Assembly: GCA_030272155.1 (NCBI GenBank)
Contig: CP126200.1
Location: 4,650,001-4,714,000 of the forward strand
Reading direction: 5' to 3'
From: Tetradesmus obliquus
Lineage: Eukaryota > Chlorophyta > Chlorophyceae > Sphaeropleales > Scenedesmaceae
Length of the DNA: 64,000 nt
Every line of letters begins with the position of its first letter. Positions within the stretch are counted from its first letter, which is position 1. Below are positions 1-64,000 of this stretch, piece after piece. The notes under the pieces were generated by a model that made no database searches, was not told the DNA's origin, and saw only the letters and a list, made by a program, of their open reading frames with translations. A program made the translations under genes and the position numbers.

Positions 1-155
1 CAATTCCAAGGGTGCGAAAGCGGTATGCGTGCTGAAGGTGGCGCAGCCAATGGTGGTGCACGCGTGCAGGAGCTCTGGCCTTCCACACGCGTTTAGCTTC
101 ACGCGTATCCAGACAAAGCTGCTGCTGCTGCTGCTGCTGCCGTTGCTGCTGCCAG

Positions 156-3100
156 GGCTGGTGTACCGTGGGGCCTACATGGTCAACTGGAGCCCGCGGC
201 TGGGCACTGCTGTGAGTGACCTGGAGGTGGAGTACAGCGAGGAGCCGGGGCACCTGTTCTTCTTTAAGTGAGTGGGGCGGCAAGATATTACCAGCACAAG
301 ACCATGCTTTTGTGAAGGTTACATGTACTGCTGTGAGGGACCTGGAGGTGGAGTACAGCGAGGAGCCGGGACACCTTCAAGTGAGTGAAGCAGTGAGGCA
401 ACAAGGACATTCTGGTTTAGAGGTTTGTAATGAAACACCTGGCGGTGGAGTACAGTGAGGAGCCGGGGCACCTGTTCTTCTGCGAGTGAGCATGGGCTGG
501 GCTTGCAGGCTTTTACTTTTGACAGATACATAATTCGGCACGGGCACTGCGGTTGCAAGGGCAGCACATGTTGTCTTATTTGCTGATGCCAGGAAAGCAC
601 CAGCCCCCTTGTGAATATGCTGTATCCCAGTAACGTCCCAGTGGGATTCAGGTCACCTGCACCTGCTCTTTGTCCTTGTGGCGGGCCTGCCGCTTGTATC
701 AAGTCTCAAGCCTCAGCCGCTCTGCATCCTGCATGTTGGAGCACCACACCTGCTGCATCACTGACATGTCATGCACTGGCCCTGGCTGCGCTGCCCCTCT
801 CTGCTTGTCCAGGTACCCCCTAGCAGACAGTGACACCGAGGAATACCTACCAGTGGCCACCACTCGCCCTGAGACCATCCTTGGTGACACAGCAGTGGCG
901 GTAAACCCTGCGGATGAGCGCTTTAAGGCCTACGTGGGCCGGCGCGTGACAGTGCCCATGTCTGGCGGCCGCACCATCCCTGTCATTGCTGACGACTATG
1001 TTGACATGGAGTTTGGCACAGGCGCGCTGAAGATCACGCCAGGTGGGCTTTGAAATTGTGAAAAGGACTCCTTTTCCACCTTGGAGGTGCCGAGAGTCCA
1101 GGCACACCAGATTTCAAGACATGTTTGTTTAAACTGCACAATGCTTTGCAACAGTGTTATCTGCTCATTACGAGCATCACGAGCCTGGGGGTGAGCTGCG
1201 ACGGCAATACCCTGCAGCGCCTGTCACCTGAACAGTACGCACTGCGGCTGAAGCCGACACAGGTTCTGCTTGATGTTTTGCCACAAACATATCATGTGTC
1301 ACATACTTCATTTCGTGTTGCTGCCCTTTCCTGCAGGCCACGACCCCAATGACTATGAGATCGGCAAGCGCGTGGGCCTGGAGACCATCAACATCATGAA
1401 CAAGGACGGCTCACTCAACGCGGCAGCAGGTGCGGCGGCATGGCGGCAGTGTCTGCGCGGGTGGAGCTTGCCAGCTGCTTGCTTGCGCGCATGCCTGCAT
1501 CTCGTGCTCTGCTGCGTACCTGACTGCCTGTCGTGCACCAGCAGTTTTGCACATAGTAATGCATGATGAAAATGAGCACCTAGTATCTGCTGTTTTCTGT
1601 TCCGCACCAGAGTGTTTGGTAAGGCAACTGTAGACAAGCCGCATGGCATCCTCCAGCGTCAACTGCCTGCTCTGTTCTGTCCCTCTGCACCCAAGCCACA
1701 CCTGGCACGTGCACGTGACAACATATATGCTTGGCGCTCTGCTGGGCTGGCGCACTGCAGGCGCGTATGCGGGCATGGACTGCTTTGATGCAGCTAGGGG
1801 TGCTGCTCCTCTCCCGTTGTGTTGCCTTCCTGCCGGCTTCCGCACGTGAATGCAACTCTTCCGCCTGCTGCATGTGGTGTGCTGCAGGCGCGTATGCTGG
1901 CATGGACCGCTTTGATGCGCGGCAGCAGCTGTGGAAGGACATGGAGGCTGCGGGGCTGGTCATCAAGAAGGAGGCCTACACCACGCGGTGAGCGGCAGGC
2001 AGATGCACAAAATGCCCAAAACACTGTTCTGTGTGTGCCCTAATTGCAGCGCGGGGGCGAGGTGGTAAAGCTTCTGATTAGTGGTTTGTGCGACCTGTGT
2101 GCTTGCACATGACCCAACAACTCACCATGTCCTTCTGCAACTGTGATGTGTGCTCTGCGTGCAGCGTGCCTCGCTTGCAGCATGGTGGCGAGGTTGTTGA
2201 GCCGCTGCATAGCGAGCAGTGGTTAATGCGACCTGCTGGCTTGAACATGACCCAGCAACTCACCTTGTCCCGCTATGCTGTGTGTTCTGTGCAGCGTGCC
2301 CCGCTCGCAGCGTGGGGGCGAGGTTGTGGAGCCCCTGGTCAGCGAGCAGTGGTTTGTGCGCATGGCGCCTCTGGCTGAGCCTGCACTGGCTGCTGTGGCT
2401 GATGGCAGCATCACAATCATGCCGGAGCGCTTCGAGAAGATCTACAACATGTGGCTGGAGAACATCAAGGTGGGCAGGGTTTTGGTTGCCAAAGGGTCAT
2501 GTCCTTTGGTACATGCATGTTAGTTTTGTGGTTACTGAAAGTGATGTTTAAGTTTAGGTCAGCAAGCGGTGGTTTGTGCGCATGGCGCCTCTGGCTGAGC
2601 CTGCACTGGCTGCTGTGGCTGACGGCAGCATCACAATCATGCCGGAGCGCTTTGAGAAGATCTACAACATGTGGCTGGAGAACATCAAGGTGGGCGGGGT
2701 GCTGTTTGCTGTTGCGCTGCACCTTGTACGTGTGTTACTTTGTCCGGCTAGTACCCCTGCCCTGGTCTGACTCTGCAAGTCCTGGTAAAGAGATCTTGCC
2801 GAAGACGAACCGTCGGCAAGGTTTGCATAGCTGGAAGCAAGAAAGCGTTCGCAGAACGCGAGGTTTTATTGGCCCAACCACCCCAAGTGTGCAGGACTCA
2901 GCCACAGGTTGGCAGGATTTCAGTGACCCTCAGCGTGCCGCCTGATGCATGCTTGAAGCGCTACTATCAAACGCACAGCCTGCCAAATCAGCACACACAG
3001 GCTCGCGCATGCACCATAACAATGCTGGAACATTTTCCTACCGGTGCCGCTGTCTGTGCGTTGGGCTGCTGCTGCTTGCATGATTGATGTGTGAGCCGCC

Positions 3101-4461
3101 AGCTGTGGTGGGGCCGCCGTAATCCGGTGCTGCTGCACCGCACACATTGCTGTGCATATGCACCTCCACACATGCATAATGCTCATCCTGAAAGCAGCTG
3201 GTGCATGTGGCTGCTGCTGCTTGCAGGACTGGTGTGTCAGCCGGCAGCTGTGGTGGGGCCACCGCAATCCGGTGCTGCTGCACCGCACACATTGCTGTGC
3301 GCATGCGCTTCTATACATGCATAACGCTTATGCTGAAGCAGCTGCTGGTGCATGTGGCTGCTGCCGCTTGCAGGATTGGTGTGTGAGCCGGCAGCTGTGG
3401 TGGGGCCACCGCATCCCTGTGTGGTACGTGCACGCCAGCCAGGCAGCCGCTGACGCAGCAGAGGAGGGCCGCAGCGACAGGTGAGGGCGGGGCGGTTGCA
3501 TGGTGCACAATAGTTGATGTTTCAACCGCAGTTTCCAACACCTGCCCAGCTGAAAAAGCTGTACTATTCAGGTCCTTGTAAGAACACTTGCCGCAGCTGC
3601 CACATATGCTGCTTGAGTTGTACACAGAAAGCAATTGGATGTTCTTTCCTAGTTCACTGGTCACAATGCTTCGTATGTTGCGGTGTGTTGCTGTTGTCGC
3701 AGGTACATTGTTGCGCGCAACGCGGCAGAGGCAGCAGAGAAGGCAGCAGCGCAGTGGGGCCAAGGGCTGGTGCTGGTGCAGGTAGGCAGTGTGGCCAACA
3801 TGAGACACACAGGTGGCAGCAGCATTACAGACCCAAATAAGGCAACAGCAATGTGTTATGATAAGAGCTGAAGGATAGGTCGGGGTGCCTTATTCTACCA
3901 TCTTACTTGTGGTATGCATGACACTCTGCCTTCATCAGATATGCAGCTAGGTGCTGCCTGCCTCTTGCAAAGGGCACCCTGCACACGGCACATCCACTCT
4001 TCCCATCAGGCAGATGCTGCTGCTGGCCTTGCTGGTATCTTGCAACTGTAGTCCTTCTGTTGTTGTTGCTGTGCTTGCACTGTTTCAGTGTCTCACAGCT
4101 GCCTGTAAAATTTTGAATGTTGTCATTTTTTTGTCTTGCAGGAGCCTGATGTGCTGGACACGTGGTTCAGCAGCGGGCTGTGGCCCTTCAGCACGCTCGG
4201 CTGGCCCAACAGCAGCGCAGCAGACCTGAAGCAGTTCTACCCAACACAGGTGACCGCCGAGCTACAGCGCAGCGCTGCACACAGCATGCTGCGAATTGCT
4301 GCTGGCTTACGTGGAGTCACTGCCATCTGGTTGACAGAGCAGGCAGTGGTTTGTGTTGCCTTGTTGGCTCCTCCTGTACACCTGCTACACTGCTTCAAGC
4401 CGTCTAATGCTTGCTGCTGCTGCTGCCGGCGCAGGTGCTGGAGACTGGCCACGACATCCTG

Positions 4462-4493
<32 letters not shown>

Positions 4494-7400
4494 CATCGGG
4501 CTCACAGGCCAGGTGCGCTGGCGGCTGCTGCTGCTGCTGCTGCGAATGAACTTCCAGGCGCATGCCAGCAACATCATTAACTAGTGCTGTTTATCAAGGC
4601 CGTGACAGCAGTCCGTTTCATCCCCATATGCTGCTGCATCTGTCATGCGTTCTGTCACCGGGTTTGTTGTACCACTCCACTGTACTGCCTGACATGCATT
4701 GTACCGCCTGCATAGCACTGTCTGACATGCATGTGTACTGCTTCAGGCCCCGTTCAGCACGGTGTACCTGCACGGCCTGGTGCGTGATGACAAGGGCCGC
4801 AAGATGAGCAAGAGCCTGGGCAATGTGATCGACCCGCTGGATGTGGTGGCACAGTACGGCACTGACGCGCTGCGCTTCACCATGGCCACAGGTGAAACAG
4901 AGATATATGTGACTGATGTACGGCAGCCGTTTGTGTAACTTTAAAGTTGTTTGAATTTGATGTGTAGCTTGCCTCAAGCCAGCTTGAATTGCATACGGCT
5001 GCGCGCCCGTGCATGTCTCAGGTCACTGCATCGTTTTCAGGTCGCTGCTGTTCCTGCACCGCTGCGCTACCGCCCTGCAGGCACCACTGCCGGCCAGGAC
5101 CTGAACCTCTCACTGGACCGCGTGAATTCCAACAGGAACTTCACAAACAAGCTGTGGAACGCCGGGAAGTTCATACTGTTCCAGCTGGAGGGCGTTAGTG
5201 ACGCGGAGTGGCAGCAGCTGTCGGGCGCGGACTTCAGCAGCAGCAGCAGCTGGCAGGGCCTTAGCCTGAGCGACCGATGGGTGCTGTCCAGTTTGCACCA
5301 GGTGCGCAATTGGCGGTTGTGTTTGCTGCTGTTTGACAAAGCGTGGAAGGAAAGGTTGACCTGGCTGCAGCGCGTTGATTCGGTGGCAGCCTGCCAGGAG
5401 CACGTAAACACCTGCTCATTCACTTTGACCTGTGGATGTGCCTTCTGTCAGGCATGTTTGTGTGCCTGGCTGCAGCTTTTCCCCAGGCTTGCCAGGACTG
5501 CTTACTGCCACCTGCTGCTGCTGTGTGACCTGCGTGTGTTGACTACTGCAGCTTGTTGACCAGGTCACGGCCTGCCAAGAGCTTCGACTTCAACGAGGCC
5601 GGCCAGGAGCACCTCAACACCTGCTGCTGCTGCTGCTGCTGCTGCATCTGCTGCTTGACCTTGTGTTTGCCTCTTCTGTTTGACCTTGCTGCAGCTTGTT
5701 GACCAGGTCACGGCCTGCCAGGAGCGCTTCGACTTCAACGAGGCAGGCCAGGCGCTTTACAGCTGGGCCTGGGGCGAGTTTGCGGACTGGTGAGCGGCCG
5801 CTGGCGCAGCTGCAATGCAGTCACATTCATCAATCTTGTTGCTTGATGCCGAGAACTATGGGGCCCTGCGCGGCGATATGTGTGGTTCTTCTGGGATGCC
5901 GCTGGGTATGCGAGTAGTACTATGCGGCCAGGGGTATGCAGGCTGGCATTTGTTGCACGGCCATGCGACACAGCAGCTCTTGCTGCGGCGCTGTGAACCA
6001 TACCATTGATCACGCTGGTGCTGCTGCTGCTGCTGCTGCCATCGCCGCCGCCGCCGCCGCTGCTGCTGCTGCTGCTGCTGCTGCAGGTACGTGGAGGCCT
6101 CCAAGGCGCGCCTGTACAGCGCCAACTTCAGCAGCGTCAGCAGCGTAGAAGACCCAGATGGCGGCGGCAGCGCAGTCAGTGCTGACCCACATGCAGCCGG
6201 CGTGACGCGTGGCGTGCTGGTGTATGCGTTCAACGTGCTGCTGCGGCTGGTGCACCCCTTCATGCCCTTCATCACTGAGGAGCTGTGGCAGGTGAGGTTC
6301 TTGAGGGTTTGCTTTTCTTTGATTTTTGTGCAGTGGGTTTGGGTAGATTTGCTGTCATCGTGTTGCTTGTCTGCACAAGGCTGTTTTTTAAGCTACGTGT
6401 CCTGCTACCTATCCTGCTACATAGCGCTAACAGACGTTTGAGGTGGTGGGGGGAGGGCTGTGTTCAACGTGCTGCTGCGGCTGGTGCACCCCTTCATGCC
6501 CTTCATACCGAGGAGCTGTGGCAGGTGCGGTTGATATACAAGGTTCAAATCGATGTACAAGGTTCAGACATAAAGCTCTGCACGGCCGAAGTCAGGTAGC
6601 AGCAGGAATGTACAAGGTTGAGATTGATGCACAAGTTGAGACACAGAGCTCTTGCACGTCTGACGTCAGGTAGCAGGATGGCTGTACACCTGCTGTGCCA
6701 CACCTTGCTCCTAGCTCGCGCACTGGTGTGCCTTTGACTCAAAACTACATTTACCCTTCATTGTCCTCCTACCGGCCGCGCTCGCTCAGTGACCCTGCTT
6801 CATATGCTTCATATATATCTTCGCTCTGATGCAGGCGCTGCCGCACCAAGGTGTCACTCTGATGAAGGCAGCATGGCCCAGCCATGAGGCAGCGGTTGAT
6901 GCAGCAGCAGTCACGCAGTTTGAGCAGCTCAAGGAGCTGGTGCGCGGCGTGAGGAATGCACGCACCGAGTACGGCCTGGAGCAGGCGCGCAAGGTATGAG
7001 GCCACCTCACACATGGAGGGTCTACGAAAATGTGGTTTCATGCGAGGCCTGCCACCATGTAAAGCAGCTGTCGCGCACTGCGTACGGCCTAAAGCAGGCG
7101 TGCAAGGTATGGCGGCTGTTGCTGTTGCGCTGCCGAACTTGCATATGCTGTGTTTCATGGCATCTTGTGTTGTTTGTGCTGCTGTGTTGTGCCCTGCCAC
7201 GAGCTGCTTAAGCTACTTGCCAAGTCTCAGCAAGGTGGTGCCGCTGCTGTTTCAGCATAGACGGGTCACCTACTTGCTGTGTTCTGCTCTGTTCTGAACA
7301 CCAGCCTGCTGCTTTGCTGGCTGCAACATGTGCCTGAGCTGCGGTCATTGCCCAGCAGCAGCAGACCCAAATTTTCTGACGCATGTCCTGCTGCTGAAGC

Positions 7401-9175: not shown

Positions 9176-12100
9176 ATGGCGTTCAGTACGCTAGCACCAC
9201 AGAAGGGCTGTCTCAGACATTGCAGTTTACGTGCTCCTGTGCGCACAAGGATACTAAGAGCAGCTGTACGTTGCGATGCATCAAACAGAACCGAGATCAA
9301 ACCTGGCGTGTTTGAGGGGTGAGTGGTTACAGCAGCAGCACCATCAGCAGGACTCGCTCTTCTAAAGAGCCTGAGCACCGTTGCATCATCAGGACCCTGT
9401 ATATGCAGGATTCTTATGTTTTGACTTGTAAGTGAAGTCCGAAGCCTGTCTGGCTATGTTAGCAAGGCGCATGAGCACATTAGTCACCACAATGTCAGGC
9501 TCGAACTGCTGCTTTTCAGCTGCTGCCAGCCACCCCTTGATTAGCAAACAGCAGTAGCGCATCACCTTTGTGCACGGGTGCCGTGGCTAATGCTAATGTA
9601 ACAGTTCAAAACATCCAGGCCATAGGGTTGCATAGCCCAGCACACGCGTCTTCCTGACAGCCCTGCACCCTGCCTGCCTTGCTGCAGGTACTGGCAGTGG
9701 CAGGGGCACAAGATTAGGTACCAGTGCAGCGGAGATAGTGGCGAGCCCGTGCTGCTGGTGCATGGCTTTGGCGGCAACTGGTGAGCAGCACAGCAGTGGT
9801 CTTGCTGAGGCGCAGCGGGCAGCAGAGGGCATTCTGTGTGCATGGCATCCTAGAGGTATCTCTGGAGATACACTTGCTGTCTGGTGGTGCACCAGCAAGG
9901 GCGCAATCTTGCACTAGCGGTGAACTCTTGGGGTGCTCACAATGTCTGGTTTGTGCTAGCCGCCCGTGAATGAAACAGAGACAGCCACTGTTTCAGCCCG
10001 AAGGTAGCCCGCAGTGCACAGACGCCGCACACTGCAGCAGCATCAGCGTCGCAAACGTGCCCTGTTTATGCTTACTGCCTCTGTGTATGTCACTACCTAC
10101 CCTGTGCGCAGCGACCACTGGCGCAAGAACACACCGCAGCTAGGGCAGCGCTTCAGGGCCTTTTCCATAGACCTGCTTGGCTACGGCTTTAGTGACAAGC
10201 CTGACCCTAGGCAAGCCCCACCCAACTCCATCTACAACTTTGACAACTGGGGGCAGCAGCTGGTGGACTTCACTGAGCAAGTGATTGGGGCGCCAGCCTA
10301 CATCAGCTGCAACTCAGTCGGAGGTGCGCGGAGTGGTTTGTTGATGGCGGGGCACGTAGTATATTTGCTAGCCTAGAACGTCGCAGCTGTGCAGCTGCAG
10401 CCAGGAAGTATCGCAGGGACACTTGAGGTGCAGCAGCAGCAGCGGTGGCAGGGGTCGTGGCAGCAGCTGGCTGTAGCAACATCTACAACTTTGACAACTG
10501 GCAGCAGCTGGTGGACTTCACCAAGGAAATCTTTGGGGCGCCAGCATACATCAGCTGCAACTCAGTCGGAGGTGCGCAGGGGACATGGTGTAGGTGTAGG
10601 CTGAGCAGGTTGCTGGCGCGCCAGCTTTCATGCGCGTTCAACTCAGTCAGAGGTGCGCGGCGTCGCGTCGTGTAGTTGAGGGTTGAGCAGGTCGCTGGCG
10701 CGAGCAGAGACTGGGGCACCAGCATACGTCAGCTGCCACTCATTGAGAGGTGCGCGCAGTGACGCTGTGGGGGTGGTGCAAGAAGGGTTGTGCTAGGCCG
10801 TGAATGTCACTGCAGTACGGCTTTCAACAGGAAGCAGGGAGCGCAGAAATGCAGCACAAACTCGCACCAACCAACCGACAAACGTGCACATCCTGCTGCC
10901 CGCTGCAGGCTTGGCTGGCCTGAAGGCAGGCATCCTGCGGCCAGACCTGGTGCGCGGCGTGCAGCTGATCAACATCAGCCTCAGGGGTTTGCACGTGGAG
11001 CGGCAGCAGCCCTGGCAGCGGCCGCTGGTGGCAGCCTTCCAGCGCTTGCTGCGGTGAGTGGCATGCTGCTTGGTGTTCTTCTTGTCAAGGCAACATGGAC
11101 AAAGCACCTGGCGTTGCACGCTGCATGGCATGTGCAACGGCATGTAGCGCAACTGCATCGCGCAGTTGCTGCTGCGCCCGAATGGCCTGGACCTTTGTGT
11201 TGTTTTGGGATGTTCATGGAGCGCACGCCGGCCTCATGCTTGAGATCTGCTGTGTGCACAGCCCTGGCAGCGGCCGCTGGTGGCAGCCTTCCAGCGCTTG
11301 CTGCGGTGAGTTGCTTGCTGCTGTCGTTTGTTGTGACGTTGTGGTCAGTAATGAGGGAAAACAAGCTTATGGTGTTGCATGTTGCGTGACGAGCAGTGGC
11401 ATGTGCAGTGTGCCTGCGATGCGCAGTTGCTGCTGTGCGCAACCGGCTGGACTTTCACGTTGCCATGAATGTTGCAGCAGCCCTGGCAGCAACCCCTGGT
11501 GGCAGCCTTCCAGCGCTTGCTGCGGTGAGTGGGTGGCAGCTTTGTGGTTTTTTTGGTTGAAGATGTGAATGTGGTGTTACACGATGCGTGGCAGGTGCCG
11601 CAGCACATGGTGCAACTGTGTCGCGCAGTTGCAGCTGCGCCCGGATGCTCTGGACTGTCATGTTGCTTCAGATGTTGTTGGAGCCCACGCACCCCTCATG
11701 CCAGGTGTGTGAGCACAGGTGGGGGCTCTCGTGATCTAGCATTGCTGGAAGGTGCGCAGCTGTGCATTTGACTCCAATAAAAAGTGTATTTTTACAGCCC
11801 TGGCAGCGGCCCCTGGGGGCAGCCTTCCAGCGCCTGCTGCGGCGAGTTGGCTGCTGCTGCGTAATCTTGATTAGTAATGACGTCACAGTACTATACAGAG
11901 GATTAGCATGGTGCACCTGCCACACGCACCTGCTGCTGCTCGTGAAAGGCCTAGACTAATGTGTTGCTTTCAGCAGCTGCAGCAGGCTGCCGGAGCTGGG
12001 CTGGGGCTTGAATGATGTTCATAGGTACATATGGCACTTGCACGCCTCATGCCTGCGACAACCGTCTCCTATGCTGCTGCTGCATTGTGCCGTGCTGCTG

Positions 12101-13796
12101 CAGGGAGACGTCGCTGGGCTCTGCCTTTTTTGGCAGCGTGGCCACGCCGCGCACTGTAAAAAACATCCTGTGCCAGGCCTATGCGGACGACTCAGCAGTA
12201 ACTGACGAGCTGGTGGACGCAATCCTCAAGCCAGGGCTGCAGGTGAGGCGTGGTTGTACTGTATGTACCGCTGCGTTGCGCTGTTCAACTGCGCCGTGCT
12301 GCGCTGCGCTGTGCAGTGGTGACTGCCGAGATGGTGGACGTGATCATCAAGCCGGTTGCAGGTAGGCAGTGCTGTGCTGTTTTGTTCAACTGTACGGTTC
12401 AGCTGTGCTGTGCTGTGCAATGCTGTGCTTTGCTGTGCAAGCAGTGACTGACGAGCTGGTGGACGCAATCCTTAAGCCAGGGCTGCAGGTGAGGCGTGGT
12501 TGTACTGTACGTTGCGCTGTTTCAGCTGTGCTGTGCTGTGCTGTGCTGTGCTGTGCTGTGCTGTGCTGTGCTGTGCAATGCTGTGCTGCGCTGTTCAGCA
12601 GTGACTGACGAGCTGGTGGATGCAATCCTCAAGCCAGGGCTGCAGGTGAGGCGTGGTTGTACTGTACGTTGCGATGTGCTGCGCTGTTCAACTGCGCTGT
12701 GTTGCGCTGTTCAACTGCGCTGTGCTGCGCTGTTCAACTGCGCTGTGCTGCGTTGTGCTGCGCTGTTCAACTGCGCCGTGCTGCGGTGCGCTGTTCAGCA
12801 GTGACTGACCAGCTGATGGACACGATCCTCAAGCTAGGGCTGCAGGTAGGCAGTGCTGTTCTGTTCAGCTCTGCTGTGCTGATCTGGTGTGCAGTGCCCA
12901 GTACCCACCCAACCCGCTCAGAGCATGCACATCGACACAACCCACCCAACCCGCTCAGAGCATGCACATCGACACAACCCACCCAACCCGCTCAGAGCAT
13001 GCACATCGACACAACCCACCCAACCCGCTCAGAGCATGCACATCGACACAACCCACCCAACCCGCTCAGAGCATGCACATCGACCTCGGTCTGCTGTTGA
13101 CTGCGTGTCTGCCTGCTGTCCACATGCACGCAGCCTGGCGCTGTGGATGTGTTCCTGGACTTCATCTGCTACTTCCCATGCCCCTCCTGCAGCCTTCTCT
13201 GGCGCATGCACAGTGACCTGCTGCTGCTGTTTCTGCTTGCTGTCCATGCAGCCTGGAGCCGTGGATGTGTTCCTGGACTTCATCTCCTACTCTGGCGGCC
13301 CACTGCCTGAGCAGCTGCTGGCTGCCACACCCCCAAGCGTGCCTGTGAGCATCCTGTGGGGGGCGGCTGACCCCTGGGAGGACATGGCTGAGGGGCGGCG
13401 GCTGTTCGCGCACTACCCCTGCGTCACAGGTGAGTGCTGTGATGGCTTGCATATGTAAGTGTTGTGATGTTACGTAGCACTTAAATGTGCACGGCGCCTG
13501 GCACCCGCAGGCTGTGGAACTGCAGAGGTGACAGTTTTCAAGTTGTCCTGCCAAGTTCACAGAACCTGACGAGCCTGACACCGCCGCAACTGCTGCTCTG
13601 CTGCTCTGCCGCTGCCGCAGAGTTTGTTGAGCTGCCAGGCGTGGGCCACTGCCCGCAGGACGAGGCACCCCACCTGGTCAACCCACTCATCGAGGCCTTC
13701 GTGCTCAGCAGCAGCAGCAGCAGCAGCAACAGTACTGATGGCGGCAGCAGCAGCAGCACCGCAGCAGCACAGCAGCAAGGGGTGGCTGCTGCTTGA
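9176..13796 (+). CDS. Chloroplast alpha/beta hydrolase, complete
   Basis: Serine hydrolase of the plant chloroplast alpha/beta-hydrolase group (relatives of At5g38520 and pheophytinase); substrate not deducible. Exons: 9176-9318, 9688-9780, 10112-10323, 10909-11053, 12104-12242, 13252-13429, 13621-13796; all joins keep phase, 361 residues. Exon 1 encodes a transit-peptide-like N-terminus (MAFSTLAPQ, then Arg- and Ala-rich, few acidic residues), which supports plastid import. Landmarks: VLLVHGFGGN oxyanion region; DHWRKNTPQL; LLGYGFSDKP; nucleophile elbow CNSVGG with Ser147 (the family usually has GNSLGG, here Cys replaces Gly); LLNISLR-like LINISLRGLH; NILCQAYAD; acid GAADPWED with Asp284; GVGHCPQDE with His313; a C-terminal Ser/Gln tail from CAG repeats. 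Start chosen as the first ATG after an in-frame stop at 9134. Four introns carry exon echoes. Confidence 0.92.
10480..10755 (+). repeat. Donor-side echoes of hydrolase exon 10112-10323
   Basis: At 10484-10573 the exon end (IYNFDNW.QQLVDFT, IFGAPAYISCNSVGG) is repeated through the donor. Two shorter pieces of the same end follow (about 10635-10660, NSVRGAR; about 10710-10755). One copy is long and nearly in frame, with only a three-residue deletion; the other two are short scraps. Confidence 0.85.
11262..11842 (+). repeat. Three echoes of the end of hydrolase exon 10909-11053, each with acceptor and donor
   Basis: Blocks encoding PWQRPLVAAFQRLLR at 11264-11307, 11481-11524 and about 11799-11842 repeat the exon end at 11010-11053. 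Each is preceded by an AG and the first two are followed by GTGAGT. Measured between AG and GT, the unit is 44 nt, so inclusion would shift the frame. Flanking intron (GCATG..TGCGCAGTTGCTGCTGC) is co-duplicated; the period is about 215-320 bases. Confidence 0.9.
12310..12850 (+). repeat. Four echoes of the end of hydrolase exon 12104-12242
   Basis: VTDELVDAILKPGLQ coding blocks begin near 12318, 12444, 12600 and 12801, after the real one at 12196-12242. Every copy has an AG just before TGACTGA and ends in CAG|GTGAGG or CAG|GTAGGC. The AG-to-GT span is 44 nt in the best copies, and in the phase of the upstream exon the first codon would be TGA, so inclusion terminates translation. Between copies lie TGCTG/CTGTG simple repeats. 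Confidence 0.9.
12535..12590 (+). repeat. (CTGTG)n microsatellite
   Basis: About ten uninterrupted CTGTG units within the echo array of the hydrolase gene; related TGCTG/GCGCT pentamers fill the gaps between the other echoes and may have driven their expansion. Confidence 0.95.
12903..13087 (+). repeat. 37-bp minisatellite, five perfect units
   Basis: Units starting ACCCACCCAACCCGCTC and containing GCATGCACATCGACACA repeat at 12903, 12940, 12977, 13014 and 13051. They are essentially identical, so the array is young. It lies in the last-but-one intron of the hydrolase gene, just before an echo (about 13133-13180) of the start of exon 13252-13429. Confidence 0.95.
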
Positions 13797-17637: not shown

Positions 17638-20600
17638 ATGTTTAGGCCTTCTGCCAATGGCAGCTTTGCTGTCCTGGTGGCCAGCCAGGACTTCTCTGGT
17701 GCAGTGAAGGTGCTAGACGAGGCTATCGATGAAACAAGGCAGGACTACACTGCTGCGCAGTTCAGGCTGGTGCAACTGCACCTCAACCGTGGCATATGCA
17801 ATCAGAGACTTCATTTGAACCGCAAGGCGCTCAAGGTAAGGGGCCGCGCGCAAGTATCTAGGAGAGCGCGAAAACTGCTTTGCAGTGCTGCTGCTGGCTT
17901 GGCCTGTGGTAGCGCATCCTTTGCGCTCGTGCTGTGACTACTTGGCGGATTAACTGTTTTATCGTTACTTTGTTGGCGTGTGTGCTCCCATGCAGGACTA
18001 TGACGCTGTACTGGCGCTCATGCCCAGCAATGTCAACGCGTTGCTGCGCAAGGGCCAGGTCCTGCAGTCAATGGGAAAGCAGGCAGTGAGTTGCTGGCTG
18101 CTGTACACGCTTGGCTGTGACCATGCAGGCATGCTTGGGATCAGCTGCTCTGGACAGGCTGTAGCGTTCCTGCAGCAGCGCAGCAGCTACAGCAAAGCCA
18201 GCTCAAGCGGAAGGGTGTCCTGCGAGGAGTGTGGCACCCTGCACAGCTGCACCTGAGCTGAGTTATGGCATAAGCTTTTGCGTTGCATGATTCAGCAGTG
18301 CAGCACACTTGTGTTTGTTTGGAACATGCACTATCAAGAACAGCACGGCGCACAGCAGCTGCGCATCGCATGTGCGCACCACCGGCCAAATAGAGCAACA
18401 GCAAGCTGAGCGGCATGGTTGCCATGCACTGCGGCCGCACCAAGGCAAACACACAGCAACACACAACCACTTAGCATCGCTCTGCAGACGTCCAAGGTTG
18501 CTTGCAGGAATGCTTGCAGGACAACGCGCGTCGTGCCGTTGTTGCTGCATGCAAGGCACACGCCAGCAGGCCGCAACGCACAGCAGTCAACCTTGTCTTA
18601 CAATCGAGATGCTTAGCACCTGTTTTGAGCCGTTTTGGCCTCTGAGCAGCTGTGGCTGTGTCTCTCTGCCTCTTCTTTTTCCCTGTTTTGCTTGCAGGAA
18701 GCGCGGGTAGTGTGGGAGGCAGCCACCAGCCTGGCAGACCCAGCCTCAGACCTAGAAGTGCTACTGGAGATCCAGGCAGCACTTGCAGGAAACACCAGCA
18801 GCAGCAGCACACCAGCAGCAGCGCCGAGCTCGCCACAGCCAGCGCCAGCAGCCACTGCAAACGGCACAACAGCAGCAGCAGCACAGGAGTTGGCTCCGGC
18901 ATCTGCAGCCGCAGCAAATGCTGAAGCCGATGGAGCAGCAGCAGCAGCAGAGGGTGCCAGCAGCAGTACTGCCCCTGCTGCCGCCTCTGCAGCTCCTGCA
19001 GCACCAAGCACAAGCAGCAGCAGCCAGCCTAAGTCCAAAATCACAAAGGGCTTCTTTAGCAAGGCATCAGCAAGCGATGCCAGCAGCCATCCAGCAGCCA
19101 AAAGCCCAGCAGCAGCTGCAGCAAACAAAGCGGCGCCAGCAGCAGCAACAGCAGCGCCAAAGGTCCAGCCGAGGGGCAGCAGCAGCGCACGCAGCAGGAA
19201 CAGTGCGGATGCTGTTGTGGAGATCGACTGTGCAGCAGAGCAGGAGCAGCAGCAGGTGCAAGGCGTGGGTGGCGGCGCTGCTGCAGCTGGCAGCTTTGGT
19301 GCGCAGGTGCAGCAGATGGCAACCAACTCCGTGGCCCTGCAGATTGCAATCAACCAGGTGGGCAGCGTTGTGTAGCAGCTGTCTGTTGCAGTCAGGGTGA
19401 GGAGCATCTGCAGGTTGTTGTGTTTCCACCACGTGTGGGCCTTGTATAATCAGGCTGCGCAGATCAACGGGGGCCAGGTGGCGCAGGCAGAGGCGCTGCT
19501 CAACACCAGCCCTGGCTCCTCTTCTATTGCTGTTACTGCGTAGATCACAGCGGCCAGGTGGAGCAGGCAGAGGCGCTGCTGGACAGCATCCTGGCCAGCA
19601 ACCCATCTGATCTTTCAGCACTCCAACTTGACCACGCTGTTGCTGGTTTGCACATCACATGCCTGCACAGGCCTGCTGTCATTGCAGGTGCACGGCGGCC
19701 AGGTGGAGTGGCCGAGGTGCTGCGCTGTGCTGCTGTTGCAACCACCCTTTTGCTGTCGCTGCTCACATCACGCAGCACCCGCTTTGTCTGTTTGCAGATC
19801 AACGGCGGCCAGAGGAGTGTGTCGAGGCGCTGCTGGACAGCATCCTGGCCAGCAGCCATCTGATTTTGTCTTGTATTATTCCTGTTGCTTCACTATTCCT
19901 TTTGCTGCTGTGCTGTGCAGATCAACGGCGGCCAGGTGGAGCAGGCCGAGGCGCTGCTGGACAGCATCCTGGCCAGCAACCCATCTGACCTGTCAGCGCT
20001 GGTGGCGCGCGGCACGGCTCGCGCGCTGGCGCGCAAGCTCAAGGAGGCGGTTGCTGACTTCACCAAGGCGATTGAGATTGAGCCCAGGTGAGCCTGAGCG
20101 CTTTGCAGTTGACTCTGCCTAACGCAAAGTTGGTTGCATATGTATCGTATGGTCTTGCTGAGCAGTGCTGCAGCAAGGCGGGGGTGCAAGTTTCAGACAT
20201 ATCAGATGTCAGCATGGGTGGTATGGCGCCGACTGAAGCGGGCATGCCTTGCTGGTGCTGCACACCCTCATCAAGAGAGGTCGCGGACACACCGGCAGTG
20301 GCGCGCTGCCCGCTTCAGCTGTTGCTTGTTGTTCCACTTTGAGCGCGCTACTGCTGCTGCTGCTGACAACGCCGACGTCCTGAGTCTGTTCACTGCCATG
20401 ATCTTGCCTGACCGTGCTGCCAGGTACCCGGACACCCACAAGAACGCGGCTGGGCACACCGTGACCATGATGTGCATGATCACTGCCTGAATCTTGCCTG
20501 CACCTTGCCGCTCACTGCTGTGCATGCGCCTGTGAACACCCTTCCAACCTTGCACCCTGAAAACCCTGCAATAACCCCTGGCCTCAGGTACCCGGACACC

Positions 20601-38885: not shown

Positions 38886-39105
38886 ACAGACACTAGACTG
38901 TTCTCCACAAGCATCCCTGCTCGCAGCGCTGCCTCACTAGACACTAGACACACCTGTGGCTGCGCTGGCGATCACAGGGGCACTAGACGCTAGACAAGCT
39001 GCCTTCTGCACTGGCATGTGCACCCGGATAGACACTAGACAGTTGGACGCAAGCCTGCCTTGCACGCTGCGGCGCTTCACTAGACACTAGACAGCCTTGT
39101 TTTTT
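38886..39105 (+). repeat. Scattered GACACTAGAC direct repeats
   Basis: The decamer GACACTAGAC or close variants occurs at least five times between about 38888 and 39094, spaced 40-70 bases apart, leading into the satellite array. Confidence 0.75.
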
Positions 39106-40641: not shown

Positions 40642-43600
40642 GGCAGCAGCAGCAATGATGAGCAACACAGCAGTAGCAGCAGTACGGCAGAGAACCTACT
40701 CAACGTTACTTGTGCACAGCAACAACCACATTGTGCTTGCTTTGCAGCACACATATGGCTCCTGGCAGCAATTCGTGTACGCATGTGCAGCTGGCTGTGC
40801 AACTTGCCAGAACACACCAGCAGCTTGAACAGCAGCAACTGACTGCTGCTGCTGCTGCTGTGCCGCAGGTTTTCTGACGAGACGGTTGTGCTTGATGAGT
40901 GGAAGGCCGGGCTCAAGCAGGAGGCAATGAAGTCAGGCCAGACCATCACAGGTGTGCTTGCAGATATAGGGTTGGGGCTGAACTTCATATTTTGACTGCA
41001 GCCGGCCTGTGTGTGCTATGCTAGGTGAGTACAAGGCAGGAGAACAGGAGACGAGTGATGGCTCAAGCAGCAGGCGATGAAGCAAGGCCCGGCCAGCACA
41101 GGCGGTGCTGCGCAGCTCGATGGGCACGTAAATGACAAGCAACCGTCAGCTGCGCAACATCAATTTGCAGCCTTTGGATGATTGCACGCTTACACGTTTA
41201 ACAAGAATATTAACATTGTCAAACTCGGCAGTTTTCATGCGTCACCGCTACCTGTGCCTCCACGCGCCAAACCGCCTGCCCATTGTGAGCATCGCTAGTC
41301 GCAGCTATGTATGGAGAGCAATGCAGCGCTGCTAGCCGGCCGGCGGCTGGGATTTTACGCAATTGACGCTGCCACCTCTACCACCATAAAAGCTAAGCTG
41401 CTGCCCCATGCCAGCTTGCATCGATCTGTCTGCTTCTTGTTCTCATGTGTGCGCTTGCTTGCTCTATTTTCTGCAATCGCTCATCCGTGTGTTCAGGCCA
41501 CCTGCCGATCGTGAGCTTTGGCGGCCGCAGCTACATTGAGAGCAACGCGGCGATGCGGCTGGCCAGCCGGCGGCTGGGGCTGTGAGGGCACGTAGCTGCC
41601 ACCTCTACCACCACTAGAGCTAAGCCTGCTGCCCCCTGCCAGCTCGCACCAATTCTCTCTGTCTGTTTGCTGCTTCCTCTCATGTGTGCGCTTGCTTGCT
41701 CTAATTCCTGCTTTCACTCATCCGTGTATTCAGGCCACCTGCCGATTGTGAGCTTCGGCGGCCGCAGCTACATCGAGAGCAACGCGGCGCTGCGGCTGGC
41801 CAGCCGGCGGCTGGGGCTGTAAGTACATGCCGCTGCCACCTCTACCACCACTAGAGCCAACCTGCTGCCCCCTGCGAGCTCGCACCAATGCTCTCTGTCT
41901 GTTTGCTGCTTCTTCTGATGTGTGTGCTGATCTGCTTTATTGCTGCATGCACACGGCCGTATATTCAGGCCACCTGCCGATCGTGAGGTTCGGCGGCCGC
42001 AGCTATATTGAGAGCAATGCGGCGCTGCGGCTGGCCAGCCGGCGGCTGGGACTGTATGGGACCGACGCTGAGGCAGACTACTGCGTTGACATGGCGGCTG
42101 ACATCATTGTGGAGGCACGGTGAGTGCTTTTTTGAATATAATTCCAAAAAGCTGGTATTTGGGTGATTTTTGTTGAGGGTTTGGGGGATTGACACCAAAA
42201 ACTTCTGGACCTGTGAAGTGTGGGGGCTGACACAGCGCTGCCCAAACACACACAAGGACACGTAGCGTCATCATCCCAAGCCGGACAGCCGGCGGCTGGG
42301 GCTGTACGGGGCTGACGCTGAGGCAGACTACATGGTGGACATGGCGGCAGACATCATTGTGGAGAGCACGGTGCGTGCCTTTTTGACTTTTGAATTTTGA
42401 ACTTTAAATTTTGAACTTTGAACTTTGAATTGATATCCGGACAGCTGGTATATGGGTACATTCTGTTGAGGTTTTGGGGATTGACAAAGAAACTTCTGGA
42501 CCTGTGAAGTGTGGGAGCTGACACAGCGCTGCCCAATTACACACACAAGGACATAGCGTCATCATCGCAAGCTGGGGCTGTACGGGGCTGACGCTGTGGC
42601 AGACTATTGTGTTGACATGGCGGCCGACATCATTGTGGAGGCGCAGTGCGTGCTGTTACAGCTGGATGAGTGTCAGCAGCAGTGTCACTGCTTTTGTTCA
42701 CTCACTGCTTTTGGAGTCCAACGTGACAGCATCTCTCTATTTCAAGTTCGGCATCTGAAGCATAAAATTTTGGGCTTGTGAAGTGGTGCTGACACAGCGC
42801 TGCTCAAGCTTACCCAAAGGAAAAGTAGCAACAATGCTCACTCAAGCTGGCCAGCCGGCGGCTGGGTCTGTACAAAAACGACGCTGAGGCAGACCACTCA
42901 ATAGATTTGGCGGCCGACATTGTGGTGGGGGAGCAGTTAACCAAATGTGTGGCAGTCCTATGTGATTACAATAGCTGCAAAAGTCTCTGCTTGCGTGATG
43001 ACTGTTTGCTGTTTGTAGGTCCGCGTGGCACGATGCTGCTGTTGCCGGGCCTGAGGCGCGCGAGGCCTACTGCAGTGCGCCAGACAAGCGCAAGCACCAG
43101 TACCAGGTGCTGAATGCGCTGATTGCGCAGAGCAAGGGCCAGGGGCCCCACGTGATTGGCAGCAGCAGCACCTTTGTGGATGCGGTGCTGTTTGCAATGC
43201 TTTGGGGTGAGTGCGGTTGGGCTGCACATCTGCTGCCATGATACTTTTGTAGTTATCTATACTCGAAACCTGCCTGATAGAGCAGCAATTCCATTTACCT
43301 GACACACCTGTTGACCGCCGACGTACCTGTGAACGAGGGGTGTGCTTCTGTTTGTTGCTCTGCTGCTTAGCTGCTGGCAGTTGAGCGAGTTGTGGACTTC
43401 TGCACTGCATTGCTAATCGCTGCATTACTTTACTGGTGTACTGCTGCGCTGCTGTACTGCTGCGCTGCTGTACTGCTGTACTGCTGCACTGCAGGATACA
43501 CACACTGTGACAGATGACGTGGTACTGTGCAAAGGTAGTGAGTACCTTTGGACTGCTGCACTGCTGTATTTTCGTCGTCTAAACTCTCCCTCTGCCCTGC

Positions 43601-50030: not shown

Positions 50031-50039
50031 GCCCATCAG

Positions 50040-52329: not shown

Positions 52330-52367
<38 letters not shown>

Positions 52368-52480: not shown

Positions 52481-52547
<67 letters not shown>

Positions 52548-53291: not shown

Positions 53292-53322
<31 letters not shown>

Positions 53323-58290: not shown

Positions 58291-58326
<36 letters not shown>

Positions 58327-60873
58327 ACTGCAATTGCAGATGCTGGCAGCTTTGGTGGCCCCTGGGGTGGCAGCAACTCTTTTGCTCAGGCATCAGCATC
58401 TGGTGAGTCCACTAAACATGGCGTTGCATGAAATTTGTTCTAGCTGGCAGGCACAGCAGGCGGTTGTTGGCGCACGCATATCAACATATCTGGCAGCTCA
58501 ATGCATTGTCCATGTCACATACCATTGCACAGCAGCAAACCAATGTTCCTCCATCCTCACGATACAGCTTGTCTTGCCTGCTGCTGTACTGCCTCTGTGC
58601 TGCTCTCAGCTGGCTCTGGCAGCGGCTGGGGAGGTTGGGGCCGCAAGCTGATGAATGCACAGAAGGCCGACAAGACCAACAACAACTATTTCTGACGACA
58701 CATGTTGTCCTGCCTGCTGCTGTACTGCCACTGTACTGCTGCTGTATTGTACTGCCTCTGTACTGCTACAGCTGGCTCTGGCAGCGGCTGGGGAGGCTGG
58801 GGCCGCAAGCTGATGAATGCACAGAAGGCTGACAAGACTGACAAGCTGCAGCAGTGGGGAGGGTGGGGCGGCGGCTACAGCCCTTATGGTGGCGGCTGGG
58901 GCGGCAACGGCGGCTGGGGCGGGTCCCCCTGGGGTGGCGGTGAGTGCGATGCGCTGTGCTGCTGCTGCTGCTGCTGCTGTTTATGCTGATGCACCAGGCT
59001 GGGGAGGCTCCCCCGTGGGGTGGCGGTGAGTGCGATGCGCTGTGTTGAGCACACAGGATGCTGTTGACAAAGGATGCGAGCAAGGGCAGGTCAGAGTTAC
59101 ACTCGCAGAACCCAGCACGCAGGCCGCACGCAATGCGGCTGCAATGGTCAGCGCACAATGCTGCACCTGAACGGGTGAGTGTACTGGTGCACATGCTTGC
59201 ATCTTGGGAGCCCACAGGGAATCTGAATGTGCTGGCACCCGCTGGTCTGCTGCTGCTGCTGCTGCTGCAGGTTGGGGCGGCTCCCCGTGGGGTGGTGGCG
59301 GCTGGTCCAACAGCCAGGCACGCGCCTCAGCAAGCGCTGGTGGGTTGGCATTAGGCAGAAAATCAGCAGCAGCAGTAGCAGCAGCAGCCCTGCCAGCACA
59401 TCAGTTTGTATGCCTTGTTTGTTTCGTCGCATCAAATGTGGCTGGTTGGACACATCTTCGGACTAACGAGTGTTGTGATGCAGTGCCACTCAGGGCCACA
59501 TGCATTAAATACAGGAGAAGTGCCAGCTTAAGCATGGTGTGGTTATGCATTTGCTCTTGTCCAAAGGGCATGCTCTGACAGCTGTTTGCTGCTGCTGCTG
59601 CTGCTGCTGCTGCAGGCTCCCAGGGCTGGGGTGGCCCCTGGGGTGGCAGCAACTCCTTTGCCCAGGCATCAGCCAGTGCAGGCTCCGGCTCAGGTGAGCA
59701 TGAAGTCTTTGTGATATCTTGGCTTTATGAAAATCCTTATCTGGATCAACTGTGGTGGTCTTGATCGCGAAGCTGTCTGCGGCATTGTTGAGCCTGCTGT
59801 TGGAGCGGCACATGGCAAGTGGCTGTGTGTGAATCTGCAGCAGCTGAAGTGGCGGCTGTATGCAAGCGGGCAGGACATTAAACCCGAGACGCAAGCACTA
59901 GCAGCACACAACCTTGTTGCTGTTTTTCAAAACCATTTATAGCAGGCTGGATGGTATCGTGCGTCTAGAAACAAAGCGCCCGCTGACCTGTTGTTGCTGC
60001 AGGCTGGGGTCGCAAGCTGAAGTTGGCTGTGGCTGGCAGGAAGCTGCAGGTGAGGCAGCAAGCACAGTACTACAGCATAGAAGAAAAGACCTGATAGAAC
60101 CATGCACGCAGGTGTATTCCTCACCTTTGTGTAGCTGATCACCTGGTGGTCAAGCGCGAGCAGCTGCAGCAGTGGCAGCATGTGAGAGTTCAGAGCAACA
60201 CAGCAGCTCTGGCGCATGTAGGTAGACTGCCAGCGCGTTTGGAAGCCCTGAGCTTGAGCAATCCATGCAGCTAGCTAGCAATCCATGCAGCTAGCACATG
60301 ATGCGTGCACACACTTGGTGCACCATGGTGCACAATGATATCAATGCTCGAAACAAGTTGGGAGATCTACAGCACGTCAGCTACAGTCCAACCTCGGCAG
60401 CACTAATGCGTTGCAAGCCTGCTTGTGCATGTGTCCTTGCCATGCTGCGCTCTCATCTACTCCCTTTTGCAGTGAGCGAGGAGGGCCGCAAACCCTCTGC
60501 TGAGCTGAAATGCAACACAACTCTACTGCAGAGTGCCGATGCAACTGATCAGTTTGGAGGCTCTTCCTCTTTTGCAAGCGCTGGTGCTAGCGCTGGAAGC
60601 GGCGGACCGTGGGGTGGCAACAGCTTTGCATCACCAGCAACAGCATCATCAAACAGCTTTGGAGGAGGCGATTTTGGCAGTTTCCCTGGCGGCGGTTTTG
60701 GAGGTTTTGGAGGTTACCCAATGTGGGGCGGCGGCGGCGGTTTTGGCGGGTACCCGGGCGGCGGCGGTTTTGGCGGCGGCGGGGGTTATGATTATAATGA
60801 CTATGGTGGCGGAGGTTATGGCCGGAGGTTGTTGAGGCATGCCGCTGCTGCTGCTGACAAGAAGCAGGCATGA
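54560..60873 (+). CDS. Secreted glycine-rich, silk-like protein built from repeated exon cassettes
   Basis: Probably an extracellular matrix or cell-wall protein; function not known. Exons: 54560-54599, 54785-54838, 55302-55451, 55778-55837, 56189-56236, 56603-56650, 57046-57123, 57349-57504, 57772-57822, 58027-58104, 58340-58402, 58772-58939, 59271-59339, 59616-59693, 60003-60049, 60532-60873; every joint keeps phase, 509 residues. The N-terminus is a signal peptide (MRRVFIALLCVVAALAVANA). The body alternates QAQAQAQ runs, GGWGG.. and NPYGG.. runs, SQASASA runs and basic motifs WGRKL, AGRKLQ, AGKKLL, ending GGGGYGRRLLRH. The basic motifs look like dibasic processing sites. No Cys in the mature protein. 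Thirteen internal exons are multiples of three with phase 1 at both ends. A duplicate of one exon at 58610 carries a stop. TGTAA at 61081-61085. Confidence 0.88.
58610..58695 (+). CDS. Alternative terminal exon (or poison duplicate) of the Gly-rich gene
   Basis: Same start and phase as exon 58772 (GSGSGWGGWGRKLMNAQKADKT) but after KT it reads NNNYF and a stop at 58693-58695, with no donor in between. Preceded by its own CTCAG acceptor. If used, the protein would end here and lose its C-terminal third. The co-duplicated upstream intron (CTTGCCTGCTGCTGTACTG) points to a recent tandem duplication. Confidence 0.75.
58998..59030 (+). repeat. Frame-shifted duplicate cassette in the Gly-rich gene
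   Basis: CAG|GCTGGGGAGGCTCC then CCCGTGGGGTGGCG|GTGAG resembles the start of exon 59271 and the end of exon 58772, but has one extra C (run of five), which would turn the reading to VGWR and a stop. Both splice sites are kept. Confidence 0.8.
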
Positions 60874-62216: not shown

Positions 62217-63242
62217 ATGAGCAGCGATAAAGAAGCACAGGCAGAAGAACGCGAGTCCCTGCACGCAATCTACGACGCAGACTGCGAGTACGATGCAGAT
62301 GCCTGCAGCTACAAGGTGAGCTGGCTGTGTGCAGCGCTGCTACCGCTGCTACCACTGCTGCTGCTGCTGCCGCTGCTGCTGGCAAGATAACCAGCCCTGC
62401 AGCTCCGACACTCCCCTATAGCAGTGCAGGCAGCACTCCCTGCGCCACAGCCTCATGCTTTTTCCTATTGGCCGAAATTCACACCAGACCCGTGCTCCCT
62501 GCAGCTGTACCTGCCCAGCAACAGTGCTGCATCAGTGGCAGTAGGCATCCTCTATGAAGCTCACACCAACCCCTGCAACCAATAACTGCAATGCCTGCAG
62601 CTGTACCTGCCCAGCAAGAGTGCCGCTCCAGTGGCAGTAGTAATCTTCTGAACAGCTCACATCAGCCCCCCTTGCAACCACGCATTGCATCCCCTACAGG
62701 TGTACCTGCCCAGCAAGAGTGCCACTCCAGTGGCAGTGCTCATACTCTTATAATCTCACACCAAACCCCTGTAACCGCTTATTGCAAACTCTGCAGGTGT
62801 ACCTGCCCAGTAAGAATGCCTCTCCACTTGCAGTGCTGCGGGCACTGCTGCCAGCAGCCTACCCCTCAGCAGTGGGGCCTGTGCTGGAGCTGGATGCGCC
62901 ACACCTGCCGCAGCAGCAGCTGGTGGCAGCGGTGGCAGAAATGGAGGCCATGTTCTGCCCTGGTGAGTGATAGAGGTGGCAGCAGCTGCAGCAGCAGTGC
63001 CGGAAAGCATGCAATGGTCTGCTTTACATAGCCAGTGAGGCATGGGTGATCGGCAGCAGCTTGAGGCAGCAGCGTGGTAGGCAGGCGTCCACATTTTGAA
63101 TAGTCAGTGAGCCGTGGGGCCTGTGCTTGAGCTTGATGCACCACACCTGCCGCAACAGCAGCTGGGGGCAGCGGTGGCAGAGATGGAGTCCATGTTCTGC
63201 CCTGGTGAGCGGCTACAGCAGCAGCAGTGGTAGCAGCAGTGG

Positions 63243-63275
<33 letters not shown>

Positions 63276-63591
63276 TGGCAGCTGGGGGAAGCGGTGGCAG
63301 AGATGGAGGCGATGTTCTGCCCTGGTGAGTGATAGAGGTGGTGGCAGCAGCAGCAGCAGCAGCGGCGGCGGCGATTGCAGATTGACGCAGCAGCATCGCA
63401 CAAGAGAGGCTGTGTGCTGTGTGCTGTGTCCAGTCAGCTGTTGTTCAGCGAGATTTCGAAGCAATGTCAGCAGTAGCAGTGGCCGCCACCTCTGTTTCCT
63501 TGTGCCACTTAGGCTGGCGGCTGCGTGCTGTGCTTGACTTACATATGGTACTGCAGACACACGAGTATGTTGCAGCTCAGGTGCTTGTATG

Positions 63592-63624
<33 letters not shown>

Positions 63625-64000
63625 AGGTGACGTCTGTCTCTTCACACAGGTTGAGTGGCTACGGGAGCAGCTGCAGCAGTGGCAGGAGGAGGAGCAGCAG
63701 CAGCAGCTGGCAGCAGCACTGCAAGCCAGCCTAGCCCTGGCTGGCAGCAGCGGCGGCAGCAGCAGCAGCAGCGAGCCAGGAAGCAGCAGCCATACAGATG
63801 ATGAGCTGGACGATGCGCTGCATCATCTGCCAGAGTCATCTGAGAGGGTGAGTTTAAAATGTGTTACAAACATGTTAGAAATCACTCAAACGCAGCCGAT
63901 GTACGTATGTAATGATCGAGCAGGCAGCAACATGCCGCAAGCGCTGGCGTGCCATTGAGCGTGCGGGAATGTCGCCTTTAACAGGCATGCCGCCATGGCA
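62217..64000 (+). CDS. RWD-domain protein, 3' partial
   Basis: RWD domains bind other proteins in GCN2-pathway and ubiquitin-ligase factors. Exons: 62217-62315, 62797-62962, 63627-63847, 63924 to the window end, all in phase. Start: ATG before SSDKEAQAEERESLHAIYD, the family's E-L-E-x-L-x-x-I-Y opening. Exon 2 has VYLPSKNASPLAVLRALLPAAYPS then PVLELDAPHLP and EAMFCPG, the YPS..P.. core of RWD. Exon 3 continues GDVCLFTQVEWLREQL (RWD's last helix) and a Gln/Ala/Ser-rich linker with an acidic DDELDDAL patch. Exon 4 begins AATCRKRWRAIERAG and runs off the window. Whether the C-terminus carries a RING or UPF0029/IMPACT domain cannot be seen. Exon 2 has echoes on both sides. Confidence 0.85.
62500..62745 (+). 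repeat. Three acceptor-side echoes of RWD exon 62797-62962
   Basis: (L/V)YLPS(N/K)SA.(S/P)VAV-type coding starts at about 62506, 62602 and 62700 precede the real exon at 62797 (VYLPSKNASPLAV). All follow C(C/T)(T/A)(G/C)AG and share CTCACACCA(A/G)CCCC linker. The period is 96-98 bases. Confidence 0.92.
63107..63328 (+). repeat. Two donor-side echoes of RWD exon 62797-62962
   Basis: The exon end AVAEMEAMFCPG|GTGAG is copied at about 63108-63205 (from AVGPVLELDAPHLPQQQL onward, MESMFCPG) and 63280-63325. Both keep the TG|GTGAG donor; CAG tracts separate them. Confidence 0.92.

Follow-up and report, generated by a model that had tools for sequence, protein, structure and literature searches.

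Introns within a stretch of 64,000 nucleotides (nt) from Tetradesmus obliquus (genome 104.66 Mb in 17 contigs; positions 4650001-4714000 of one of them), referred to here as the window, contain direct partial copies of the adjoining exon edge and its splice signal, here termed echoes. The evidence comes from the window, in which the exons of four genes were mapped (GST, SRFR1-like, alpha/beta hydrolase and ValRS; 42 introns and 84 junction sides), and from 25 loci of 10 kb each sampled outside it. The origin of the copies is tentatively attributed, at somewhat less than even confidence, to local duplication with filler that is biased towards exons, the intronic copies being hidden by splicing and lengthening the introns.

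A Smith-Waterman search of the 84 junction sides at a score of at least 56 found 38 echoes, against none in a dinucleotide-shuffled control (one shuffle per side, same score), and the exon-edge copies with splice signal that a preliminary description of this DNA had reported in introns are therefore real. A looser count at score 50, made without the shuffle control, gave 51 exon-edge copies in 23 of the 42 introns, so that the figure of more than forty given there is reached in these four genes alone. GST was mapped by spliced alignment of protein P0001 (227/227 residues), the SRFR1-like gene by that of P0006 and P0007 and the alpha/beta hydrolase by that of P0020, while the ValRS map combined a PDB match (1gax) with a small gene finder built for this work and trained on the 25 loci together with the window's first 60 kb (splice consensus in training GTGAG for donors and CTGCAG for acceptors). 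Judgement was exercised in removing two gene-finder exons of ValRS (456-485 and 2558-2689), which were regarded as echoes, and in dropping or replacing those parts of the spliced alignments that were stray ends or had zero length. All 42 introns so defined are GT...AG. OEZ86_005729 of T. obliquus is matched by a GST protein of the window. Positions 18698-19357 form one exon according to the UniRef species protein P0006; the annotated OEZ86_005727 (P0007) splices out 18758-19306.

With microsatellites masked, alignment of the window to itself (E≤1e-6) gave 104 direct matches, 92 of them less than 500 nt apart and all within 1.3 kb; none of the 104 was inverted. Among the 69 matches lying in the four genes, 39 joined an intron to a junction-spanning copy, 13 an intron to an exon and 17 an intron to an intron, where circular shifts gave expectations of 17, 12 and 26 together with 13 pairs exonic on both sides. 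By coordinates, 11 of the 13 intron/exon pairs extend 1-7 nt beyond the junction and the other two end 1-4 nt short of it. Comparison of junction overlap with expectation, which the preliminary description had proposed, bore out the bias: of the pairs that include an intronic copy, a fraction of 0.57 involved a junction, against 0.31±0.07 in the shifts, 1 of 2000 of which reached the observed value, the 69 matches not being independent. Grouped into families, 29 lay at an exon edge and two were intron-only, one of the latter being a 37-bp minisatellite of 4.9 perfect copies in an alpha/beta hydrolase intron (12903-13084). No pair had both copies exonic (0/69, counting exon overlaps of at least 8 nt). 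The lack of exon-middle copies had been taken to indicate a mechanism centred on junctions, an argument that fails, since such duplications alter the protein and are purged, and of the 69 pairs 13 were expected to be exonic on both sides where none was seen.

In the 25 sampled loci, whose exons were predicted with the same gene finder, direct repeats less than 2 kb apart occurred in 17 (173 matches) and were absent from eight; eight further direct matches lay beyond 2 kb and two were inverted, both in L014. The 173 matches comprised 58 intron/junction, 26 junction/junction, 20 intron/intron, 18 exon/intron, 12 exon/junction, 10 exon/exon, 19 intergenic and 10 mixed pairs, the junction/junction and exon pairs being in part echoes mis-called as exons. 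The offset was divisible by 3 in 6 of the ten predicted exon/exon pairs, a small number: in L010 and L026 it was so in five of six (102, 240, 102, 243 and 909, 496 being the exception) and in the tangled array of L029 in one of four. From 351 introns of the window and the loci, 127 junction sides with a best echo scoring at least 64 were obtained, of which a low-complexity filter removed 31. The remaining 96 spanned identities of 0.68-1.00, in agreement with the wide range of similarity first reported, and 67 of them fell in 13 of the 25 loci. Since the other 12 loci had none at this score, eight lacked any direct repeat within 2 kb and 19 of the 42 mapped introns lacked an echo, the statement that echoes occur throughout was too strong. 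Echo density was patchy along the genome, L020 and L033 being rich (15 and 10 junction sides) and loci of the same size having none. Two arrays were called intergenic, L015:7171-8587 with a unit of ~198 nt and L026:1-1135 with a unit of ~191 nt. A genome search made with positions 1-2000 of the window alone, in which 40 of 368 candidates were scored, returned simple repeats and one 68-nt match at 84%.

The shape of the duplicated blocks was most informative where the best echo had an identity of at least 0.9 (54 rows, here called young). These blocks reached 31-153 nt into the exon (median 56) and a median of 11 nt into the intron, the intron extension being 15 nt in the mapped genes and 6 nt at the other loci. 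In 32 of the 54 the block ended 0-25 nt past the splice site, in 5 at 26-60 nt, in 10 beyond 60 nt and in 7 inside the exon; for the 19 from the mapped genes the corresponding numbers were 12, 2, 4 and 1. Some apparent ends inside exons in the 25 loci may be artefacts of echoes that the gene finder took for exons. With the 29 families against two, these block ends support the earlier claim that copies favour exon edges over intron interiors. Donor and acceptor sides were alike in block shape. All 32 short-overhang echoes were separated from their source by a spacer of at least 30 nt, and the flanks past the block had no anchored similarity (0.383 vs 0.375±0.009 in 37 usable pairs of 38 chosen at an identity of at least 0.88). 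The clearest block, in ValRS (2337-2489 against 2557-2709), is 97% identical over the exon part plus 6 nt of intron and 95% identical over its whole length. Arrays without a spacer also occur alongside spaced echoes.

The distance between source and echo was not evenly spread. On the 23 mapped sides with an echo, offsets to the best echo fell at 99-143 nt (10), 213-253 nt (10) and 372-403 nt (3), and when the 96 rows from window and loci were merged into 84 unique source-echo pairs the offsets clustered near 125 and 240 nt; a single best echo of the 96 had an offset below 95 nt. The best period for the 79 pairs under 420 nt was 129 nt (p 0.0005, from a smoothed null distribution of our own design), with 130 nt in the mapped genes (0/2000) and 148 nt at the other loci (p 0.03).

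Sequence change in the copies reads as free decay beside a constrained exon. Differences between exon and echo at codon positions 1, 2 and 3 were 37/636, 34/630 and 95/629, with 285/2138 in the intron parts. In 15 families with at least two echoes, changes private to one echo were even over the three positions (29, 28 and 31) and those separating the exon from all its echoes numbered 0, 1 and 6; in single-echo families the changes were 17, 10 and 29. A frameshift or stop was present in 12 of the 27 echoes with at least 30 nt of exon, and AG or GT stood at the inner edge of the echo in 4/25 and 6/21 cases (a count, without formal test). In the eight families with at least three echoes exon-echo identity was mostly above echo-echo identity, and the least exon-like echo was the farthest one in seven, the eighth being tied, though aligned lengths differ. 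The three alpha/beta hydrolase echoes beginning at 10480, 10601 and 10702, for example, have identities of 0.93, 0.81 and 0.76, dropping with distance. New copies therefore seem to arise next to the exon, older ones being pushed inward, unless it is conversion that drops with distance.

Intron length in the four genes rose with echo number (296 + 152 nt per echo, r 0.81, 42 introns), the median for introns without echoes being 234 nt, and echoes seem to have lengthened introns.

The process tentatively favoured would consist of recurrent local events leaving a source, an unrelated spacer and a direct copy, with breakpoints in exons or within ~10-20 nt of them. Duplications inside an exon would alter the protein and be lost, so that survivors must carry the splice site along; with the splice signal copied, one copy would keep a working site and the other, now intronic, would be removed by splicing, unseen by selection, and could then decay freely. 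Once two similar stretches exist, source plus spacer could expand further in tandem, perhaps through unequal exchange or slippage, to give arrays whose last copy is partial, and repetition over time would yield longer introns. That none of the 104 window matches is inverted speaks against unconstrained template-switch insertion.

Simulations of tandem duplication and of filler models were scored with the same measuring code as the real data, one earlier BLAST-based run excepted. Uniformly placed duplication with random filler gave the observed shape, a short overhang with a spacer, in 32 of 74 and 37 of 67 young echoes, but overhangs of 26-60 nt were too frequent (31 and 24, against 5/54 in reality) and intron-only families stood to junction families as 102:63 and 47:40 (54-62% intron-only). 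When breakpoints were allowed to fade into introns over 10-20 nt, 20/24 and 41/60 echoes fell in the observed class, the median extension was 11.5-14 nt and intron-only families numbered 0/37 and 1/59, against the real 2/31. This exon-biased filler model fits best.

Several points weigh against it. The model was built after the data had been seen, and its lengths were chosen manually. Offsets clustered near 125 and 240 nt do not follow from it. With fading breakpoints it gave no block ending inside an exon (0/84), where 7/54 were observed (1/19 in the mapped genes), and one overhang above 60 nt in 84 against 10 in 54, the excess being read as array expansion outside the model. There was a weak unanchored similarity between spacer and post-echo sequence (1.17 vs 0.95±0.05, reached in 3/200 permutations), and block length was negatively correlated with spacer (r -0.64), possibly a selection effect as pairs were chosen by offset. 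Differences between echoes were uneven over codon positions (60/476, 48/474 and 83/471), which leaves room for constraint or shared history, and 15 of the 27 echoes had neither frameshift nor stop. The bias of breaks towards exons that the model assumes has no cause known to us. Finally, the DNA is that of one species, in which the ancestral flank is not distinguishable.

The next most credible explanation, though a doubtful one, is that copying is bounded by splice junctions, with the exon and its splice signals serving as template, for example as an exon-limited RNA or RNA-DNA hybrid, and the copy placed in the intron at a distance of ~125 or ~240 nt. It would account for block ends clustered from a few to ~25 nt past the junction on donor and acceptor sides, for the clustered offsets and for the scarcity of intron-only families (2/31). 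The window matches are all direct, however, and each echo is found on the side of its own exon edge that faces the intron, the arrangement that duplication by DNA repair would produce; the copies hold intron bases, so that spliced mRNA was not the template, and there is no direct RNA evidence. The stronger claim, that a process reading boundaries copies exons and splice signals as bounded units into the adjoining intron in offset steps of ~125 nt, is slightly less probable again. A junction mechanism and an exon-wide bias of breaks followed by selection leave the same survivors and cannot be told apart.

Plain random tandem duplication of 100-250 nt units, with purifying selection and neutral decay, would make the junction bias a matter of visible survivors, and is considered unlikely. 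With short ancestral introns many units do span a junction (among accepted events, intron-only stood to junction as 41:69 and 75:141; at higher rates near even, 1072:1184, 1617:1449 and 1746:1754), the substitution levels at codon positions and in introns fit one constrained and one free copy, and arrays with alignable intron parts exist. The earlier BLAST-measured run, in which the spacer was ignored, moreover put the block end at 25 nt or less from the junction in 39% (18 blocks) and 25% (24 blocks). Simple random duplication nevertheless does not yield the block shape found: in simulations that included selection and decay, tandem duplication produced the short overhang with spacer in 11/194, 1/123 and 2/160 young echoes (14/477; 2/86 in a pilot run) against the real 32/54. 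The intron-only share in tandem models was 20-45% (16/53 and 12/60; 64/232 and 47/104), beside which 2/31 is low, though not extreme at the 20% end. A geometric estimate of 3.5 intron-only families for each junction family was wrong, having been based on the present, lengthened introns, and a short-intron simulation was used in its place. It is the block shape and the family counts together that disfavour plain tandem duplication.

Less probable still is that old tandem duplications had their exon parts homogenised with the constrained exon by gene conversion or unequal exchange, the intron parts escaping. Exon-echo identity mostly above echo-echo identity and mostly falling with distance would suit such homogenisation, as would the partial last copies of arrays, and runs at high conversion rates gave 11-18 blocks ending inside exons, as 7 of the real 54 do. 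Conversion added at rates from 0.05 to 80 nevertheless gave the observed shape in at most 16/117 blocks, in what is a simple model, and four-gamete failures, at 6 of 14 site pairs, concern few sites and may be repeated mutation. A selected function for the copies, as alternative exons or as splice decoys, is very improbable: several are called as exons by the ab initio model, many keep the splice signal and 15/27 an open frame, but echo-private changes are even over codon positions, the remaining 12 are broken, AG or GT at the inner edge is infrequent, and the annotated species proteins of GST and the SRFR1-like gene hold the duplicated peptides once each. Assembly error, to which tandem arrays are prone, is hardly credible, as most copies differ by a few to more than 20% and stand at differing offsets, and echoes recur in 13 of 25 other loci.

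Resemblances to known systems are partial. Introners are dispersed families supplying intron sequence genome-wide, unlike the echoes of the window, each of which matches its own neighbourhood only. Minisatellites form arrays with fractional copy number; such arrays occur here too, with a fixed period in several families, but their anchor is the splice junction, and many echoes are single and spaced. The echoes differ from duplicated or mutually exclusive exons in being partial exons, 12/27 with a frameshift or stop, and in having an even echo-private codon pattern. Fill-in repair of staggered breaks by Pol alpha-primase/CST generates small tandem duplications in which the copy is immediately adjacent (PMC8355091). 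Those duplications, attributed there to breaks with staggered ends, are likewise direct, local and tens of nt long, but 32/54 young echoes combine a short overhang, touching the exon edge, with an unrelated spacer of at least 30 nt. Intron gain by tandem genomic duplication turns two AGGT copies into the ends of a new intron (PMC3443670); it too is an intragenic duplication made harmless by splicing, but in the present case an existing intron is lengthened and 0/69 pairs have both copies at exons. New introns of Daphnia carry direct repeats of 4-12 bp from staggered breaks, and internal breaks were suggested to lengthen introns (PMC4202315). In that work the repeats of adjacent exon ends accompanying introns are read as footprints of repair; the echoes are longer, with 31-153 nt of exon in young blocks, number up to four and include old copies. 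A literature search of open-licence papers found no paper describing the exon-edge echo pattern.

Positions of the principal sources, echoes and arrays are collected in Table 1. Larger minisatellite arrays lie outside the four mapped genes at 50105-50595, 45897-46252 and 39092-39924, with units of 53, 34/68 and ~108-203 nt, respectively.

Table 1. Sources, echoes and arrays at exon edges, in positions of the window
Feature	Position	Strand	Remarks
ValRS source: exon end and donor, junction 267|268	219..276	+	Echoes 327-376, 437-496
ValRS acceptor-side array, period ~131	2044..2360	+	Exon start 2295
ValRS source: 133 nt of exon end (exon 2295-2469) and 20 nt of intron	2337..2489	+	Exon map
ValRS echo of 2337-2489, ~95% identical	2557..2709	+	67-nt spacer; followed by unrelated sequence
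ValRS acceptor-side array, period ~145	3046..3421	+	Exon start 3395
ValRS source: 67 nt of exon end and 8 nt of intron	6225..6299	+	
ValRS echo of 6225-6299	6459..6532	+	
Alpha/beta hydrolase source: 95 nt of exon end and GTGCGC	10229..10329	+	Exon map
Alpha/beta hydrolase, three echoes of the exon end in 10229-10329	10480..10834	+	Echoes 10480, 10601, 10702
Alpha/beta hydrolase source: 51 nt of exon end and 17 nt of intron	11003..11070	+	
Alpha/beta hydrolase, echoes after source 11003-11070	11256..11858	+	Echoes 11256, 11474, 11795
Alpha/beta hydrolase source: 51 nt of exon end and intron start	12192..12288	+	
Alpha/beta hydrolase, echoes after source 12192-12288	12440..12864	+	Echoes 12440, 12595, 12795; GCTGT repeats between
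SRFR1-like, four acceptor-side echoes of exon 19921-20087	19454..19867	+	Echoes 19454, 19528, 19673, 19793
SRFR1-like donor-side source and echo	20639..21000	+	Source 20639-20769, echo 20876-21000
SRFR1-like acceptor-side array, period ~121	23596..24036	+	Exon start 23988
SRFR1-like donor-side array, 2.4 copies of 213 nt	25395..25911	+	Partial last copy 25822-25911, exon end and 5 nt only
SRFR1-like donor-side array	27392..27796	+	Partial last copy 27757-27796, exon end and 2 nt
GST acceptor-side array of exon 41969-42119, period ~226-237	41272..42056	+	Three echoes
GST donor-side source from 42030, with echoes	42030..42931	+	Exon end 42119; echoes 42280, 42571, 42846
Gly-rich gene, echo of acceptor and start of predicted exon 58772-58943	58585..58844	+	Echo 58607-58682
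RWD gene, acceptor-side array, period ~97	62497..62837	+	Predicted exon start 62797

How introns grow is a long-standing question. In the four genes much of intron length tracks a local process that can be counted, at 152 nt for each echo, and the age of each echo can be read because the exon beside it stays nearly fixed. If copying by a process that reads boundaries were to prove true, splicing or an exon-limited RNA-DNA structure would shape DNA duplication and drive intron growth in the lineage. With block ends lying just past the splice signals and offsets of ~125 and ~240 nt, a connection of exon structure to DNA breakage can be put to a direct test.

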